Positions 1,904-58,979 of a stretch of 64,000 nucleotides of DNA are shown piece after piece. The notes under the pieces were generated by a model that was not told where the DNA came from, did not search any database, and saw only the letters and a list, made by a program, of their open reading frames with translations. The DNA is taken from positions 145,164 through 209,163 of the forward strand of contig SJOL01008415.1 in assembly GCA_004794785.1 (NCBI GenBank). Direction: 5' to 3'. How positions within the stretch are numbered: the stretch's first letter is position 1; every line of letters starts with the position of its first letter. Source of the DNA: Opisthorchis felineus. Its lineage: Eukaryota > Platyhelminthes > Trematoda > Opisthorchiida > Opisthorchiidae. The translations under genes were made by a program, and so were the position numbers.

Positions 1904-2086
<183 letters not shown>

Positions 2087-25746: not shown

Positions 25747-25975
25747 GCGACTTTCATCACTAAAAACATCAAAAAAACTTTGAAAGTGGGGAAAATTTTC
25801 CGAAATTTTAACTGAGCAGCATTTTGCAAATAAGATCTATCATTAGCAAAAAGCCGAGAACCACTGGGCAGCTGTTTCATCCTTGTTGCCAATCATCAGC
25901 AAAGGAAAGCTTTGAAGTTACGACTTCCTTGTTACTGGTAGACAGTGCACACTTCGTCCAAGGACAATCGACCAT

Positions 25976-31478: not shown

Positions 31479-31670
<192 letters not shown>

Positions 31671-42664: not shown

Positions 42665-42990
42665 AAGGATCCTCGCCCAGTTGAATAGACTAGAAACTCT
42701 GTTTGTAAAATTAATTGCAACGACTGCACTAAGATCCATATAGGACACACACAGGGAACATGTCACCAGAATTGATGAACACACTAGAAAGACAATTAAA
42801 CCACCAACGGATGTGGACAAATATCAGGCACTGCTGAAAGACTCGCCGGTGGCAGGACATGCGTTAAACACAGAATATAGAGTAGATCTGGAAAACTTAG
42901 AAGTTTCAAGACCGGGAATACGATTCACACCACAGCCACTGATGGCCGGGGCACTCAGACAAACAGGGGCCAGATCTTTCATGTCTGTCC
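42665..42990 (+). pseudogene. Penelope-like element relic (GIY-YIG region)
   Basis: A second, older copy of the endonuclease region seen at 48.3-48.6 kb. It reads NSVCKINCNDCTK then, after frameshifts, YQALLKDSPVAGHALNTEYR, VDLENLE and RFTPQPLMAG, matching the other copy residue by residue. This copy keeps the CxxC pair (CNDC) that begins the domain, whereas the tyrosines of the GIY-YIG core have decayed (IHIG for YIG). Stops and indels make it non-functional. No hammerhead motif was found downstream. Confidence 0.85.
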
Positions 42991-45800
42991 ACACTACAGC
43001 TACTGCGACAATACTCAGTGATTTAGCTGTATTTGCTTGATTCCAATGGCTCCGACCGCCAATATTATCCGTCTACAGCTTTTTAGAATAACGTTTGCAA
43101 ACCGAGTAGAACAGACTGAACCTGCTCGCGTCACACAGTGGTCAGTCTGAACCAGACGTTGAAGAACATAACTATTTGCGTTTTTAGCTATGATCTTGCA
43201 AAGTAAAGCTGGGAAGTGTTCCGAAATACGCTTGAACAAACGCCTTGTTTTTCGACTCTACCACAAGTATTGATACACAGATATAAAAAGTACGAGCATG
43301 ACTGAACAAGGTCTCTATCTTTTAGGAACACATCGATAGTAGACAAACCTTGCAAGCTTGCGCGGTCCGCACTGCAGTTAAAACGTCTTGTTACAAGCGA
43401 ATGAAAGTTTTCGAGTGGGCAACTTGAAAACCATATATTCCTTAAATGAAACGAATGAAACCAAAGCTTAATCTGGAAACATGCTTTCCTATTAGACAAC
43501 ATTCTTTAAGCAGCAATTATTGCTAACAAATGCCTCTGGACACTTGTTTTCTTTGAGTAAATTTCCTTTCCTTAACTTCCCCAGGAATCCGAACTGGCTT
43601 TTACTTGACAACTTAACAGTGCACTGGCTTTCTTTTGTATCGCAGGTGGAGAAAAATTTGGAATTGTGTGCTACTCGTCCAAATGATCTACTATACAGCC
43701 CGATTAATCCTTCTTGGGTCACCACGCAAAAACTTCATTTCCAAGAGTGGTAAATGGCTGCTTTCCTCAACTTCGATTGAAGCATTGCACTAAATGTGCA
43801 CTATTAAAGAAATGGGGAAAATCTGAGCAGTTTGATATCTAACGTGAATTTCTAAAAAGAAATCTTATGCACTGCGAGATTCTTTCTAGGCAGTTTCTGA
43901 TGTAGCCTATAACCATTTTAACTAGTTTAACTCCACTTAATCCTATGCTGCTTGCCTTTGGTGGAGAATATGCTCACTCAGTTGTTGCGTTGTAATTCTC
44001 ACGAGTACTTCAATATAGGGTTTCATTTCAGGTGCTCTCTCGCTGAGTGTACCTTAGTAAGTACAATAGTTGTGGGCTTTGAGCAATCTGGTTACCGTTT
44101 GTTTCCACGTTATGTTTTACCGATATCATACAAATTGACGACCAAATGTGAGAACCCTCGAAGCCATGCGATATCTGCCATGCTACAGTCCTGCAATTGT
44201 GGTCTATTTAAATGCGCCGGTTGAGCTTGGCTCACCTTTTGTCCCACACGGCAGTCAAAAATTTCGAACGCAGGAGTGAACACGGAATATATTACTACAG
44301 ACTCATGTTGAGCCGCAATAGACTCTCTTCGTTTAAGTTAACTCCCTTGCTTACGTTAAACACAAGACGTTATACACGTGTCACGTTCAGTCCTTTGCCT
44401 ATCACAGCGAAAGTGTCTGTTTGCTAGTGAATAGGTCGGTGAAACTAAAGGACTATACGTACTTTCTAATGAGAGCCTGTGGAAATCGAACAAATCTCTA
44501 GTTACTGATGCCACTTTTGTTATGCAGTATTTTGACAGAACACATCCGTTTTGCACGAGACGCTAAAAGGAAAAATATATGTCCCATGGGGCACACTCCG
44601 ATAATAGCCTGTCAACTTTTGACTCCCTACGGACATTGCTGGAGATGACAGCCAATTTGCATTGACAAAAATTGCACAAAGTGTTTGCAGCTTGCAAACA
44701 TAGCTGAATGAATCTTAGCCATAACAAAACCGTTAGACTGAAAACATCCAAAAAATTGCAAAGTAACGGTTTCAGCATCTCAATACATTCAATTTATTGT
44801 CGCAATAGTAACAGCTACAGACTCAGAGGAAGGTCGACATAATAGTTTGTCACAAGGGAATGAGAATATCGGTTTTATAACAGCTAGCAGACTCCTCCAC
44901 ACGGTTGATAGAGTACTGGTAATTTGTTGAGGACTGGGCTTTCCACTGTTCCTGGCGCACATGAGAACAAGATAGACAGCGGTCCATATCCGCCGTAGGT
45001 ATGATGTTCATTCTGCCCAAAAAGAATGACGTATTCTGGTTGCCAGAAAATGTTGATTGGTGTCGATGGTAGTAGCGGCCTAGCACATGAATGTCTCAAA
45101 ATCTGGCTGAACGTTTCTTCAAAGTCACCGCAAAATGGAATAGGAAATTTCATTATTCATTTTAGATTTCTTTAATAATAATAGCAAACACAACTCCATT
45201 TGCGAAAACTGCACCCTAGTACAATCATCTGCCGAAACAGCTGCCTGCAGATTTCATCCGTTGACTCCACTTAATATGCATATTGGAAGACAATAAACAG
45301 GCACTCGTTTTCAAGCGATCAGGGAAAATCGGCTCAGCCCAATCGTATTTATCACCTAATTAGTAGCTGTCAGAAGTAAGCCGCAGGCAGAAAAATCACC
45401 CCGTTTATTTAGTATACAAATAACCACAAGTTATTTGCATCTTTTGTTGGCTACTAGGTGCAACAAGCCGTATCCCTGTTGCACTTCATTTCTTTGAATG
45501 ATTCAACATGTTACGAAGGTTCTGGAGACTTCTGTTGCTAGCAGAATCTTCCTGGTGGTACTGCTGCAATTTTATGTTACTCAACAGTTTATCATTCTAT
45601 GCACCGTTCTAGAGAGCAGTAGGATGTATCCGTTCGTCTGAAAACTCAATCTCACAAGAAGCCTAACATTCGGTGTTGTTGACATTTGAAGTCTGGTTAA
45701 CGTTTAGCTAACATTATCAGCTTCCCATTACGTAAGTGTCGCTTAGAATATTTTGCCATATATTTGTGTGAAATGTTGACGTTTGTATCCAACTTATTAG

Positions 45801-48296: not shown

Positions 48297-48848
48297 GGCA
48301 AGATTTTACGCTCAGTGTTGGTGCAGTTGAAGGATCGCCTTCCGGTTGATAGGACTAGGAACTGTGTATACAAAATAAAATGTAACAACCGTACGAAGGT
48401 TTATATAGGTCAGACAGCCAGGGAGCTGCACACCAGACTCGGTGAGCATAAGCGATCCATTAACAGACCACCGAGAAACGTAGATGAATATCAGGCGATA
48501 GTCAAAGATTGGGCAATGGCAGGGCATGCACTAGACACTGGACACAGGATAGATTTGGAAAATATGGACATTCTAAGACGGGGGTTAAGATTCACACCAC
48601 AGCGACTGGTGGCCGAGGCGGTGGAAATCGCCAAGCATCCTAGCGTGAATAGAATAGAGGGCGTAGAACTGGCAAGCTTGTGGAGAGCGGTTTTAGATCA
48701 GCCGACACGACATAAGGTGGTGCGCAGTTATCAGCAAAATGGTCTGGGTCTAAAAGTACAAAATCCAAGCAGAATAAGATCCAATCAACCAACCCCAAAC
48801 CAATTGTCCCGACACCCCTCGACGAACACAGGCGAACAAATTCTGTGA
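48297..48848 (+). pseudogene. Penelope GIY-YIG endonuclease domain
   Basis: The domain opens with NCVYKIKCNNRTKVYIGQTA, followed by ELHTRLGEHKRSI, then the conserved AGHALDTGHRIDLENMDILR and RFTPQRLVAEAVEI. It keeps the paired tyrosines (VYKI and VYIG), the catalytic-type Arg in the first helix and the downstream Glu. The expected CxxC that starts the domain in relatives is CNNR here, so one zinc-binding Cys is replaced by Arg. The older copy at 42.7 kb keeps CNDC, so this is a change in this copy. ATG 48315 is not a true start. The tail after 48700 is Gln/Asn/Pro-rich and ends at TGA 48846-48848. Confidence 0.9.
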
Positions 48849-49094: not shown

Positions 49095-49139
49095 CTTGGC
49101 CTGACGAAGCTCTTGTGTCAAAAGCGAAACGTTGCCCAG
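49095..49139 (+). ncRNA. Hammerhead ribozyme-like motif of the Penelope element
   Basis: The conserved core CTGACGA (49101-49107) and GAAAC (49126-49130) are separated by a foldable stem (GCTCTT paired with AAAAGC, one mismatch). Flanking arms CTTGGC (49095-49100) and GCCCAG (49134-49139) can pair as helix I with one mismatch. The would-be cleavage triplet GTT (49131-49133) follows GAAAC directly, leaving no loop for helix III. ACGT (49129-49132) is self-complementary, so helix III could form only between two RNA copies. One extra A sits between CTGACGA and helix II. Hammerheads in Penelope-like elements are established knowledge; activity of this copy is inference. Confidence 0.55.
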
Positions 49140-52100
49140 CAATAAATCCACCGATTGTTTACCAAACCTCTCTGAAACGATGACTACCCAATCGGTCCCA
49201 AACATTTTCCAATTGATTGGAAACTTTTTTGTTGTTACTGGTGTTTTTTGAACTGCATCTGCTCTTGAAGAAGTTACTGTAGATGCGTGTACTCAAAAAT
49301 ATTTCATGGATACTCAGGCTTAGACTAAGAACTGTAAGCCATGTGGGCAAATTATCCTCTCTGCAAAAAATTTGTGTGGTTTTGCGCGCTAATTGCAGGC
49401 GATAAGATTTTCTCCGTCGATATTGCAACCAAATGAACAATACACTGGAATATGCCGGACTTTTTAAACACAAAATATGAACACAAAATTGTAAACAGCA
49501 ATCCTACTTGTTTGGGGGTAAACGTACCTAACTGACACACCAGCTAGTTTGAATTCACCGTTTAAATCAATCGAGCGACTATAAATAGTAGTCAGTATTT
49601 GATGCTCCTGTAGGACACAAAAGAACAAAGCGTCTGTAATTTCGCTTTATTGATACCGGCTGTTTACTGATTCGGAAAAATGCGCCTGACGTGGTTCAGT
49701 AAACCAGCAAAACTAATGTAACAAAGCTAGTTAAAAGCTGCAAATTGTTTAAGTGTATTTTGTTACCGATCAATAGAAATTTCTTTGTCCGTGGGATAAA
49801 AATGGAGAATTCTTCATATTTGGTCGCAAACTACTCGTTTGTTGAATTGTTGTTACCTTAAAAACTGACGGAAAATCTGAATGCTTTTCGATCCCACTAC
49901 CAACTAAAACAGCGGATTTGTCTTCTAGTTGGAAGCTGAACATCCGTTACCGTGATCAGACATTCGCGTGAATCTAAACAGTCATTGTCAATCACTTAGG
50001 AAGTTGATGAATGGATTCCACTGTAGAGGGAGGTAAAACGTTGGCTGAGCATATGTACCATTGTCCCTCAGTGGCCTTGGTCACTCTGCACTAGGCAGAC
50101 ACAGACAGTTACTCGTGCAACTAACAAACAAATTGTCGTTCGATCCTTGAAGCAACACTACATAAAATAGTGAACTACCAGTGGAACAGTGGATCGGCTC
50201 GAAAACTGATCGAAACAAGCTTTGTAGATCGTTAAAATCTATCGAAGTTTTGGACTGGGCAGTAAACCTGCAGGTGAATTTAAAAAGTGAAGTACAAATG
50301 TGTGAAGTGTTGAACAGCCGCGTTACTCCTGTTCGTTCTGTCGTCAGCAGTGTAAGTCTCTAGAGAATCTCCAAAAAATGCCAAATCAGAATAAATTTAC
50401 GGTTGCAGCAAAAAACTGAAAAAATCAGGTACTGGTATAATGTATAAATTCTTGTCCACGGGCTTTAGGGATACGTAAAATGTGCTGTTCACAAGTTGTT
50501 TCATAATGAAATTAATTTCACAAACTTAGCTTGCGGTAAACTGTGTACACTTGTTTCCAAATCCCCAGTCTTATTTTGTTTTAATCTGGTACTGCAAAAA
50601 GCCCCCTAACACTGGACTTTTGTAGCATTTTCTGCAAGAGCGAGTATCTGGTGGAGGAAAAAGAAACTCGCGAGACTCACATTCGGCTTTAGCTAAGTCC
50701 TGATCTACCCGTTTTTGTTTTCTCTTATGATTAAAAATTCGTCCAGCTGAAATTTGGTGATTGATTCGTTTAAAATGGTTAAGGTATTTGCAGCGTACAA
50801 AAAATAGCCAAAATGCGTCTTTAGTCAGTTTGTTTCAAAGATTCTAACAACAACAGTTCTGCCACTAATTGTGACCGCCCAGCAAGATGCGTAAGATCAC
50901 TGGATTACAGCGTATGAAATCGATACTGTGTTCCTTTTGGCACTAAGTTGATCTCTTAATGTATGGGCATGGCAAAAAACTTATAAGCTTATTTCTCGCA
51001 GAGGCTAGGAAGCCCAGTCGTTTTCTTGGCACCAGCAACGTAGTTAAAAAACGGAATTGTTTTACTAATAACAATGCAGCAGGATGCTTGCAAGCTTTAT
51101 ATTTTCAACACAAAAACATTGCTAGCTTTCAACGTGTTAGCATACTACCACTTTTGTCGGGAAAACACATTCGGTAGGTGCCACTTTCAGGGAGTGACTC
51201 CCATTCCCACATTGGGTCACTTATGAATACACTTGTACAAATCTACATCGAATTTACGAAAGCCTAATTTTATCCGTGTGCTTGTAGAAGCTTCTACAAA
51301 TGCATGGAACACATTCCACTTTGTTCATATATTCCACGTTCCTGAATATTGGTGTCTGGGACACGCCGGTGTAGTTAAATAAACTTGAAATCTGAATATG
51401 CGGTGGCGAAGCACCAGTGTTAAACGTTGGTGTTATGCAGTCGATGATGATTATGTTGATCACAGTGATTGTATATCTGTCATCTGAGTCTTCCTGAAAC
51501 AGCAGTTTTTGTGCCAAGCGGTTAAACCCAAATGCAGGGCGCAAAACATGAAAACCTGTTACTATATCTTTCTGAAGTAACAACCAAAAAAGTTTCGGTT
51601 ACGGGTGAATCTATGAGTGGCGGGTTTTCATATCCATGAGTTTTATTAACTTGAACCTGTTTTGAAGCTACTTTCGTTTTCAGTTGATGGTGCCATCCGT
51701 CCATCCTAGGCGGCCAAGTCGAAGATTTTCCATTGATGCAGTCCTTTGGTACATCAGCAAACAGCAAATTTATGCTGTTCATGTTCCAGTCACTTCCTTA
51801 CATGCATCGTATGACTGGATTTTTAGAGAGAGAGAAATGGATCGTTCATACTTGAAGTGCATCAAATGCGCACCCGCATGCTAGGACACGATGAAGGAAC
51901 ACAGTGCATCTCTACAATTCCTGCTGTCGTCAGAGATCATACCGTCTTATCTGGTGCAAGGTGGGCCGTATTCAGCCACTAAAACAGTTCCTATTCCCCC
52001 CTGTAGAAATTACACACGCCTGAGACACCTCTGTTACACATTTTGTTAGAATCTTGCCTTTTTAAACTCCACGCCTGCAGTTACGGATGCACTGGCTTCA

Positions 52101-55082: not shown

Positions 55083-55165
55083 AAAGCATATACACATACA
55101 TATATACACATATATATACATACACATATACATAAGTATATATAAGTATATAAGTATGCATGTAT
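55083..55165. repeat. AT-rich microsatellite (TATACA/TACACA/TATAAGTA mixture)
   Basis: Tandem short units change gradually from ACATA/TATATACA to AAGTATATA. It directly abuts the repeat body at 55166-55510 and, read on the minus strand, forms its 3' tail. Confidence 0.9.
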
Positions 55166-55510
55166 AAGTATTAATAATAAACGCGGGGAAGTGCCTAACG
55201 GCAACCAGCTTGATTCTGCGCTCCCATAACTAGACTGTACCTTAAACGTCATAACTGGACGGATTCGGTTCAACCTCCGGTAGTTCGGAGACTCCTGATT
55301 TAGAGTCCCTGGGCATCTGGTGATACTTGTCATTGATCGATTTGAAAGCAATCACATGGTTGCCCAATAAATTTGGACCATTCGTGCGAGGGCTGTGAGT
55401 GTTCGAATATACATTACTGGCACAACAGTAAAAGAGCCTGTGTACTTGGGATAACAACTCCGCAGGCCGATCTAGTTCCGCCATCTGAAATCCTTTACAA
55501 TCATGCGGGA
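55083..55510 (-). repeat. Retroelement-like repeat with microsatellite tail
   Basis: On the minus strand a more G+C-rich body (55510 down to 55166) ends in GGCACTTCCCCGCG and then TTTATTATTAAT, and passes straight into the AT microsatellite. That layout is typical of the 3' ends of SINEs or LINEs with simple-sequence tails. Two minus-strand frames are open through the body (55242-55484 and 55073-55351). The first reads MAELDRPAELLSQVHRLFY and matches no domain I know. The family is not identified, and the 5' boundary is approximate. Confidence 0.45.
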
Positions 55511-57215: not shown

Positions 57216-57974
57216 CTTGGTGGCTCAGTACCTAACGAGGTGTACAAAACTGAGTTATTCTTTCGGTCAACCAACCAAGTAGACAAAGCATTCATTTGAT
57301 AAGTTAGTATATCTGACCTTTACTAAAATAGTCTGACTGTCCTGTTTGGGTAATTTCAGAAAATTGGTTTTATGCACATTTAGTTGATCCTTTGATATCG
57401 ACAAACTGACTTGAAATCGAATACCAGGTCTTATAATCTGTCATCTGTGACCTCTGCAAACTTCCGTACATCATGGGTCAAAAACCCTCATAGCATGGAT
57501 ACAAAGAGTGCACATACATACAGATAAAATCCTAGTTTTATCGTTGCAAGCATGTAAATCTGAGGGACTAGATCATCTACGTTTAATACAAATCGAACAC
57601 TAGTTAGGGAATAGACAGTTAATGCAGTCCATTTCCTTTGTTCTTAATTGCAAACATAAAAGCAAACTGATGAAGTCTATGGCGGCTGCCAACTTCGATA
57701 TGCTGTTTGTATGTTCTGTTCGTGGTGTTCACCTGAGTTCCCGTCACTGGATAACTGAGACACGACAATAGTGCACCCGAATTGTCCAATGAGATTCAGG
57801 TCAAGACCTTCCCGGAAGAAGAGAAAAAATCAGTCACTTGAGCTTTCCCTATTTAGTCCAATCAAACAGATGAAAAATTAGTTGTAGGTGTTGCGAGATT
57901 TGATTACCGAGATTAACGCTCACGCCACACTCGTTTGAACAGTCATCTGCCTGTCCTGGCCCAATCATTCTTGT

Positions 57975-58130
57975 GAGTTAATCCACACCAAAAGAGGTAA
58001 GCACTGTACTCGAGTTTCAATTTTATTAAAGCTCATCAGTAGTGCTTATCCCTGGCCATACTAGGGTTTGAACTCCGGACATCTGACATGCCAAGCAGGC
58101 GTGTTGCCACTACTCCACCAGCGCAAGTTG
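57975..58130 (-). mobile_element. tRNA-derived SINE with hammerhead, copy A
   Basis: The minus strand carries an RNA polymerase III A box (TGGTGGAGTAG, plus 58110-58120) and B box (GTTCAAACC, plus 58065-58073) about 36 bases apart, the spacing of a tRNA-type promoter. A hammerhead sequence follows immediately and then a CTTTTGGTGTGGA block shared with copy B. The tRNA-like head, ribozyme and tail align with copy B along roughly 150 bases with many substitutions. Similarity also continues about 25 bases 5' of the A box. This architecture is the one described for the SM-alpha SINE-like family of schistosomes. Ends and target-site duplication were not resolved. Confidence 0.82.
57999..58047 (-). 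ncRNA. Hammerhead ribozyme, type I, conserved core bases present (SINE copy A)
   Basis: On the minus strand: helix I arm AAGCACT (58047-58041), one A, core CTGATGA (58039-58033), helix II, core GAAA, helix III CTCGAG (58014-58009), triplet GTA (58009-58007), then C and the second helix I arm AGTGCTT (58005-57999). The helix I arms pair perfectly over 7 bases. Helix III is ACT/AGT closed by a 2-base CG loop, as short as in schistosome and newt hammerheads. Predicted cleavage falls between 58007 and 58006. All invariant core bases are present. The weak point is helix II, where GCTTT must pair AAATT with a G-U and a C-U mismatch. Self-cleavage is inferred. Confidence 0.82.
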
Positions 58131-58339
58131 GACGCATCCAAATTTTCCCGTCTGAAAAGCCGTCACCGAAAAACTGTCCAGCAGGTTTCAAGCGTCTATG
58201 GCGCTACCTGACTGGAAAGACTTAACATGTGGGACAACCTATCGACACAACGAGGACAATTACCAGGTCGTCGTTCAAGGCCTCGGGCCAACCAATCATA
58301 TTGCTCAATCGTGAACGTGTTCGCCTGTTCAGACGTGAT

Positions 58340-58512
58340 AATTCAGTTGCTTCCAGCTTGATGTGGTGAAGTAGTGGTAACACGCTCACCTCGTATGTCA
58401 GATGTGGGGAGTTCAAATCCCGGTATTGCCAAGGATATGCGCTGCAGCTGAGCTCTAATATGAGCGAAACTCAAGCCTGGTGCTTCCTTCCTTTGGTGTA
58501 GACTCACCAGAT
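58340..58512 (+). mobile_element. tRNA-derived SINE with broken hammerhead, copy B
   Basis: Plus-strand copy with A box TGGTGAAGTAG (58364-58374) and B box GTTCAAATC (58411-58419). It then has hammerhead sequence, and a CCTTTGGTGTAGACTCAC tail that matches copy A. It lies in opposite orientation to copy A, about 230 bases away, A-box ends facing each other. It has diverged from copy A throughout, so the pair arose either by separate insertions or by an old inverted duplication. Confidence 0.8.
58436..58485 (+). ncRNA. Degenerate hammerhead (SINE copy B)
   Basis: GAAAC (58466-58470) and a perfect helix II (GCTC 58452-58455 with GAGC 58462-58465, loop TAATAT) are retained. The other core strand has shrunk from CTGATGA to CTGA (58448-58451), a loss of three essential bases. 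The expected GTH triplet reads AGC. The helix is thus better than in copy A while the catalytic core is lost, so this copy should be inactive. Confidence 0.75.
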
Positions 58513-58979
58513 AGAAAAATGCCTACCTAAAAACAGGCTGAGCAATTTTTAATTCAGTTTTAATCACCTCGCTTCACACCGGAATTCCTCGCAGACTCCT
58601 ACGGTCTGAAAATCTTATTTTTCATTTCCTTAGCCCAAAGTATTTGACGCACTTCATGCACACTCGAAACACAACTAACTTGCTTTTTAGGCTTTCTCTA
58701 AATTCACGATTGCTCACTCGATTTTTCTTTCAGCACCATATTAGAACAGACCATTTGAGGAGGAAACTTGTAAGCCTAGGCTATTATGTTTACGAACCGC
58801 AGAAGTTTGTGGCTCCCAGATGGTCAGCTGTTCGTTACTTACTTATGGTCACTTATTTTCTTCGCCCGCATAACCTTTCATTCTTATATGGAGTCCCGTA
58901 TAACAATCGCCTGTGAGATACGCCTTTCCGTCAAGACTTACCAAGGTAGACGGTAATATAGGGGACCAAATATGCATGA

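Follow-up and report, generated by a model that had tools for sequence, protein, structure and literature searches.

A decayed head-to-head pair of hammerhead SINEs in a CaMK1 intron of Opisthorchis felineus: family insertion pattern suggests spread by Penelope-like elements

Introduction

A 64,000-nt stretch of the Opisthorchis felineus genome (contig SJOL01008415.1; hereafter the window) contains a repeat in which tRNA-like promoter boxes are followed by a hammerhead ribozyme motif. This locus raises two questions: what moves short repeats of this kind, and is the ribozyme of this copy able to cleave its own transcript, as a sequence-only reading of the window had claimed? Penelope-like elements (PLEs) are named only as candidate movers of animal hammerhead-bearing short repeats, retrozymes among them, on the basis of shared hammerheads, tandem layout and co-occurrence (available parts of PMC7229834 and PMC7761336).

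A PLE protein cuts and extends both target strands; its start point is internal to the RNA, at an A/C-rich stem loop, and an optional tail of 30-40 bp corresponds to the stretch between two start sites (PMC11167929). According to the available part of PMC3846280, the commonest inverted PLE layout is head-to-head, the duplications measure 8-10 bp, and one of the inverted repeats may carry an optional 31-bp tail.

Results

Two SINE copies joined head-to-head in a CaMK1 intron

The window carries two exon parts of a CaMK1 gene (Table 1), and the next part was found at contig position 231868, equivalent to window position 86705. Clonorchis sinensis CaMKI matched five joined exon parts with 100% identity over 85% of the query. 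The location within a kinase intron, proposed in the sequence-only reading, was borne out, the intron being that of CaMK1. Two SINE copies lie in it; copy 1, which contains the reported motif, is antisense to the gene, and the CaMK1 pre-mRNA therefore carries the complement of the hammerhead motif.

The start of copy 2 directly adjoins the 5' end of copy 1 (58169 and 58168, gap 0). The copies diverge from the family consensus by 17.6% (copy 1) and 17.2% (copy 2), and the pair consists of two decayed tRNA-like hammerhead SINE copies joined head-to-head. It is flanked by a candidate target-site duplication, AGATGAAAAAT/AGATAGAAAAAT; among 3000 random pairs of flanks, 17 matched equally well. The A-box-like and B-box-like segments of copy 1 were judged against what we take to be the box consensuses, and neither the window nor any of 11 loci gave a tRNA call with ARAGORN.

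Two further observations concern the same region. Further along this intron the SINE occurs as one more head-to-head pair (L039, contig C1333, ~216693-217177), and an AT-rich simple repeat at 55086-55171 gave below-cut-off matches to several microRNA models.

Table 1. Features of the window (positions from its first base; a dot marks features without strand)
Feature	Position	Strand	Remarks
CaMK1 exon part	1949-2080	+	kinase motif HRDLK
CaMK1 exon part	31515-31640	+	kinase motif DFG
PLE remnant, GIY-YIG endonuclease part	48297-48845	+	Pfam PF01541, 26.1 bits (cut-off 22.6)
Minimal hammerhead of the window PLE	49095-49140	+	CTGACGA..GAAACGTT at 49101-49133; insertion 3' end near 49219
Candidate left target-site duplication	57868-57878	.	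AGATGAAAAAT
SINE copy 1, ~unit 150-436	57879-58168	-	5' end 58168, 3' end near 57879; nhmmer 173 bits against consensus; end motifs
Decayed type I hammerhead, copy 1	57991-58054	-	core intact, helix II gone; A/C mismatch at 1.1-2.1 (model, fold, Rfam)
B-box-like segment, copy 1	58064-58076	-	GGAGTTCAAACCC
A-box-like segment, copy 1	58107-58119	-	GGTGGAGTAGTGG
SINE copy 2, unit 0 to ~349	58169-58508	+	74% identity to copy 1 over 186 bp; nhmmer 243 bits
Hammerhead of copy 2	58430-58493	+	pairing of helices I and II retained; CAGCTGA replaces the core CTGATGA; family model 62.4 bits, HH9 22.3 bits
Candidate right target-site duplication	58509-58520	.	AGATAGAAAAAT; one extra base

A large family of hammerhead SINEs

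A search of the genome (630 Mb, 1,848 contigs) with the 171 bp around the motif gave at least 41 matches, with 40 of the 2,382 candidates scored. The 33-base hammerhead of the family, with C or T at one position, occurs exactly 135 times, and its consensus form is found at 1,512 places with up to three mismatches; the reversed pattern gave 0 occurrences in each search. Six copies lie in the 124 kb formed by the window and the downstream contig, from which a family of tens of thousands may be extrapolated as a rough guess drawn from this one stretch. The repeat is dispersed, non-coding and present in high copy number, as befits a SINE.

The family unit is 435 nt long and is composed of (i) an upstream part, (ii) tRNA-like boxes, (iii) the hammerhead, with the cut after unit position 310, and (iv) an A/C-rich tail. 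As modelled, the family consensus fits a type I hammerhead, with the core CUGANGA, GAAA, an NUH cleavage base and three pairing helices, and fold prediction assigns its helix I and II pairs probabilities of 0.78-1.0. Of 40 aligned copies, two of them from the window, 33 have an intact core, 29 have the core together with helix III and the cleavage base, and 10 have the core with all counted pairs. Covariation in support of the hammerhead structure did not rise above that of shuffled alignments. Selection on the hammerhead was seen in the first sample of copies; in the sample drawn by the upstream part it was non-significant (p 0.15 and 0.10), and this claim was dropped.

Most loci and copies hold one hammerhead. 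In L035, L036 and other loci the sequence runs through, tail-to-head, into the upstream part of the next unit, and in 13 of 53 segments the start lies 10 nt or more into the preceding unit, across the tail-to-head junction, which suggests that copies are made from an RNA that is longer than the unit, or circular. A rod-like form of such a circle was considered and set aside as weak (predicted circle fold against shuffles, z -1.8). The sequence-only reading had called the repeat a SINE, and this stands in so far as it is SINE-like, with polymerase III-like boxes and then a type I hammerhead; the label is incomplete in view of the run-through and of the many head-to-head joins described below.

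A different class of hammerhead (CACCTGATGAGCCCCAAGAAGGGCGAAACC) was encountered in L004-L007, where it belongs to a short repeat that matches itself in inverted orientation; in L006, positions 1426-1729 match their own reverse complement.

Head-to-head joins and favoured 3' ends

The orientation of neighbouring copies was determined in 71 loci, with 25 head-to-head, 10 direct and 1 tail-to-tail arrangements. The corresponding numbers (head-to-head/direct/tail-to-tail) were (i) 14/4/1 for 36 loci selected by similarity to the window copy, (ii) 6/2/0 for 19 loci selected by an exact hammerhead, and (iii) 5/4/0 for 16 loci selected by the upstream part. A sign test of 20 head-to-head against 1 tail-to-tail gave p = 2e-5. 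It should be noted that near-duplicates inflate the head-to-head count by two: L003, which closely resembles L002, was excluded from the counts of 3' ends and kept among the 36 loci, adding one join, and L093 and L094, apparently one locus present twice as an inverted duplication, add another; without them the ratio is 23 to 1. L076, chosen for its head-to-head appearance, was omitted from the join counts of the 19 loci and from the second of the duplication tests given below, and kept in the end counts. The single tail-to-tail call comes from L035, a complex locus, and some of the head-to-head joins may stem from errors in the assembly or from subsequent rearrangement.

The 3' ends of 73 segments from the first two samples were located at unit positions 396-412 (20 segments), 413-425 (7), 426-442 (34) or elsewhere (12). 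The favoured ends, found in these two of the three samples, thus lie ~94 and ~125 nt past the cut, ~30 nt apart. In the third sample (n = 19), 6 ends fell at 396-412, 4 at 426-442, 5 between them and 4 elsewhere, so that the two-end pattern is unclear there. The ends are A/C-rich, without poly-A or a microsatellite.

Target-site duplications are clear in L020 and a few other loci and overall modestly more frequent than in controls: duplications of at least 7 bp flank 8 of 43 insertions, compared to 5.6% of shuffled pairs, and 2 of 21 insertions in a second set, compared to 3.8%. In L020, two copies are joined head-to-head, one with the long end and the other with the short one, and an 11-bp duplication without mismatches encloses them.

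Penelope-like elements of the same genome and the LINE alternative

A PLE remnant with its own minimal hammerhead is present in the window (Table 1), and an ORF at 42744-43040 (+) resembles the C-terminus of a PLE endonuclease (AGHALNTEYRVDLEN..), with no Pfam match. At least 150 relatives of the remnant were identified in the genome (150 scored of 4,256 candidates), many with reading frames of ~840-916 codons. In the three families sampled (L077-L090), copies are nearly identical within each family over the compared part, which suggests recent activity. A hand count of PLE endonucleases up to 6 kb apart among the 150 scored relatives gave 5 direct, 2 head-to-head and 0 tail-to-tail arrangements.

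In 25 of 27 PLE loci the minimal hammerhead is located near the 3' insertion end, which lies 38-50 nt past the predicted cut in 16 copies and ~86-94 nt past it in 9 (two judged by eye). L051 and L079 in this set have one flank in common; L054, which ends long, and L091, without a hammerhead match, were left outside it. Rfam model HH9 gave 0 matches in 4 PLE loci.

The SINE layout is similar, in that a hammerhead is followed by two favoured 3' ends. The SINE unit showed no homology to 12 PLE loci except for a SINE copy beside L053, and homology of unit and PLE was rejected, this being the sole match. What the two may have in common is a 3' terminus of ~15 terminal bases, ranked first of ~407 in 4 of 12 comparisons; the SINE 3' end is the unit's best match to the short PLE end for two of three PLE families and two of three tail variants. 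The PLE-type insertion layout is thus present in the SINE as head-to-head joins, together with two 3' ends that are clear in samples 1 and 2 only.

The same repeat might instead be a conventional tRNA-derived SINE that relies on a LINE for its movement, in which the hammerhead is a passenger and the head-to-head pairs result from twin priming or nested insertion. Such an origin would suit the existence of the A and B boxes and the absence of PLE homology beyond the terminus, and in a related fluke 72.3% of repeats are reported to be LINEs (available part of PMC6530080). The A/C-rich 3' ends, lacking poly-A or a microsatellite, argue against it, as do the joins: under nested insertion, tail-to-tail arrangements should be as frequent as head-to-head ones and gaps should not be near zero, while twin priming inverts without duplicating, yet both arms of a pair often carry the same part of the unit. 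Judged by these features of the SINE copies, movement by a LINE is considered unlikely, and a PLE-type insertion is favoured.

The hammerhead of the window copies

Every base listed for copy 1 in the sequence-only reading is present on the minus strand: the core CTGATGA..GAAAC at 58039-58014, the 7-base arms AAGCACT (58047-58041) and AGTGCTT (58005-57999), the cleavage triplet GTA, which ends at 58007 and places the predicted cut at 58007|58006, and the A-box-like and B-box-like segments. A type I hammerhead requires a stable helix II and a paired 1.1-2.1, and copy 1 lacks both. An A/C mismatch occupies 1.1-2.1, the pair closing helix I, and helix II is reduced to G-U and A-U pairs with a C/U mismatch, its predicted pair probability being 0, compared to 0.96-1.0 in the consensus. 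The sequence-only reading had listed neither of these defects, nor copy 2 or the minimal hammerhead of the window PLE. When helices I and II are required to form and the core to stay unpaired, the best fold of copy 1 is predicted at -2.3 kcal/mol, against -14.9 kcal/mol for the free fold, a difference of 12.6 kcal/mol for a single RNA without protein; the values for the family consensus are -14.3 and -16.3 kcal/mol.

Copy 1 is thus predicted to be too damaged for self-cleavage, and the proposal that its transcript would cut itself is probably wrong for this copy, which has also diverged considerably from the consensus. An active ribozyme processing RNA from the kinase intron, to which the intact core bases and cleavage triplet might point, is highly improbable given the loss of helix II, the energetic cost of the hammerhead-compatible fold and the orientation antisense to CaMK1. 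Copy 1 has lost helix II and copy 2 its core; neither SINE hammerhead of the window is predicted to function, and their defects are complementary.

Decayed as it is, the motif of copy 1 is real and above chance. A covariance model was built from 28 copies located elsewhere in the genome, with no window copy (28 of 29 listed references; L011:1127-1186 was omitted, 4 further copies were skipped, and L009, which is the window copy again, was removed from the alignments). With this model, 58047-57999 (-) scored 64.4 bits (E 2.7e-18 in 64 kb). A weak match at 25851-25914 (-) (18.3 bits, E 0.003), with many positions unpaired, is probably due to chance. The loose pattern CTGATGA N6-30 GAAA by itself would be little proof, as it occurs 4 times in the window against 1.29 expected, and at least 4 times in 5 of 100 shuffles. 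A chance match to the hammerhead pattern, for which this frequency of the loose pattern might speak, can be dismissed in view of the score from the independent model and of the 1,512 genomic near-matches against 0 in the reversed control.

An Rfam hammerhead search had been named in the sequence-only reading as the test of its claim; read literally, the outcome goes against copy 1, since nothing in the window reached the gathering score. Under lax settings, Hammerhead_HH9 (RF02275) gave 18 bits for copy 1 (E 0.4 in 2 kb), and this match was absent from the list of a whole-window scan at E 10. HH9 is the best Rfam match of 8 SINE loci, at 33-42.5 bits (E 8e-8 in 30 kb for the highest-scoring intact member); all of them remain below its gathering score of 52, as do both window copies. 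The motif matches the family model though the general Rfam model misses it, and is therefore regarded as a member of the family.

Discussion

The best reading of the repeat is a SINE of the SMalpha or retrozyme kind. Its resemblance to SMalpha of schistosomes, claimed from the window alone, holds for the promoter-plus-hammerhead plan, SMalpha being compared here by its description in the available part of PMC2770079. Like SMalpha and Sj-alpha, the present family combines a putative tRNA-like polymerase III promoter with a type I hammerhead downstream of it, and has a high copy number and a trematode host; it differs in its opisthorchiid host and in the head-to-head joins and two favoured 3' ends described here. 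With metazoan non-LTR retrozymes, as described in the available part of PMC7229834, it shares a type I hammerhead in a repeat of 150-450 bp, a helix III that is very short and capped by a palindromic tetraloop, tail-to-head run-through and the presence of PLEs in the same genome. Tandem units with hammerheads, another retrozyme trait, are reflected in the run-through and in the 10 direct neighbours. In contrast to retrozymes, the G+C content of the unit is 52.6%, where that source gives less than 45%, and most copies hold one hammerhead. The family is probably new to description, again with SMalpha compared by description, while its general kind, the hammerhead SINE or retrozyme, is known.

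The insertions themselves are reminiscent of pseudo-LTR hammerhead PLEs, which likewise have a hammerhead just 5' of the 3' insertion end, two favoured ends, and both tandem and head-to-head layouts (available part of PMC3846280; PMC11167929). Unlike these elements, the SINE is non-coding, has tRNA-like boxes and carries a fuller hammerhead with helix III. We conclude, with a probability of roughly 70%, that the window pair is decayed and that the insertion pattern of its family points to spread by PLEs of the same genome. The small number of target-site duplications, the absence of unit-PLE homology beyond the short terminus, the unclear two-end pattern of the third sample and a covariation no greater than in shuffled alignments count against this proposal.

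The route that we infer, which involves transcription, cleavage, circles and the action of PLEs in trans, would be as follows. In a live copy, polymerase III would start at the A and B boxes and transcribe the hammerhead and tail, and in tandem copies the ribozyme would release unit-length RNA. Nicks in both target strands would come from the GIY-YIG endonuclease of a PLE, and its reverse transcriptase would begin copying inside the A/C-rich tail, at one of the two favoured sites. With both strands primed, the copies would meet 5'-to-5' as a head-to-head pair whose 3' ends face outwards, flanked by a short duplication of the target. As for the role of the ribozyme, hammerhead mutants left PLE insertion in vitro unchanged (PMC11167929), which counts against the proposal.

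The new part of this work is structural evidence linking hammerhead SINEs to PLE-type insertion. Among the open-licence papers listed in literature searches, none was seen to describe PLE-type joins for hammerhead SINEs, which does not prove that no such description exists. Taking the proposal further, we lean slightly towards the view that hammerhead SINEs are parasites of PLEs, written into the genome by two-strand PLE priming, which combine a tRNA-type promoter with a portable PLE entry module made up of the hammerhead and an A/C-rich tail with two start sites. Since the SINE is present in high copy number beside PLE families with nearly identical copies, the link between them can be tested in the present genome. 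Head-to-head pairs would serve as a natural record of two-strand target priming. If the SINEs are indeed such parasites, every head-to-head pair, including that in the window, would be a fossil left by a single event of two-strand priming, and the mover of SMalpha-like elements and animal retrozymes would be settled.
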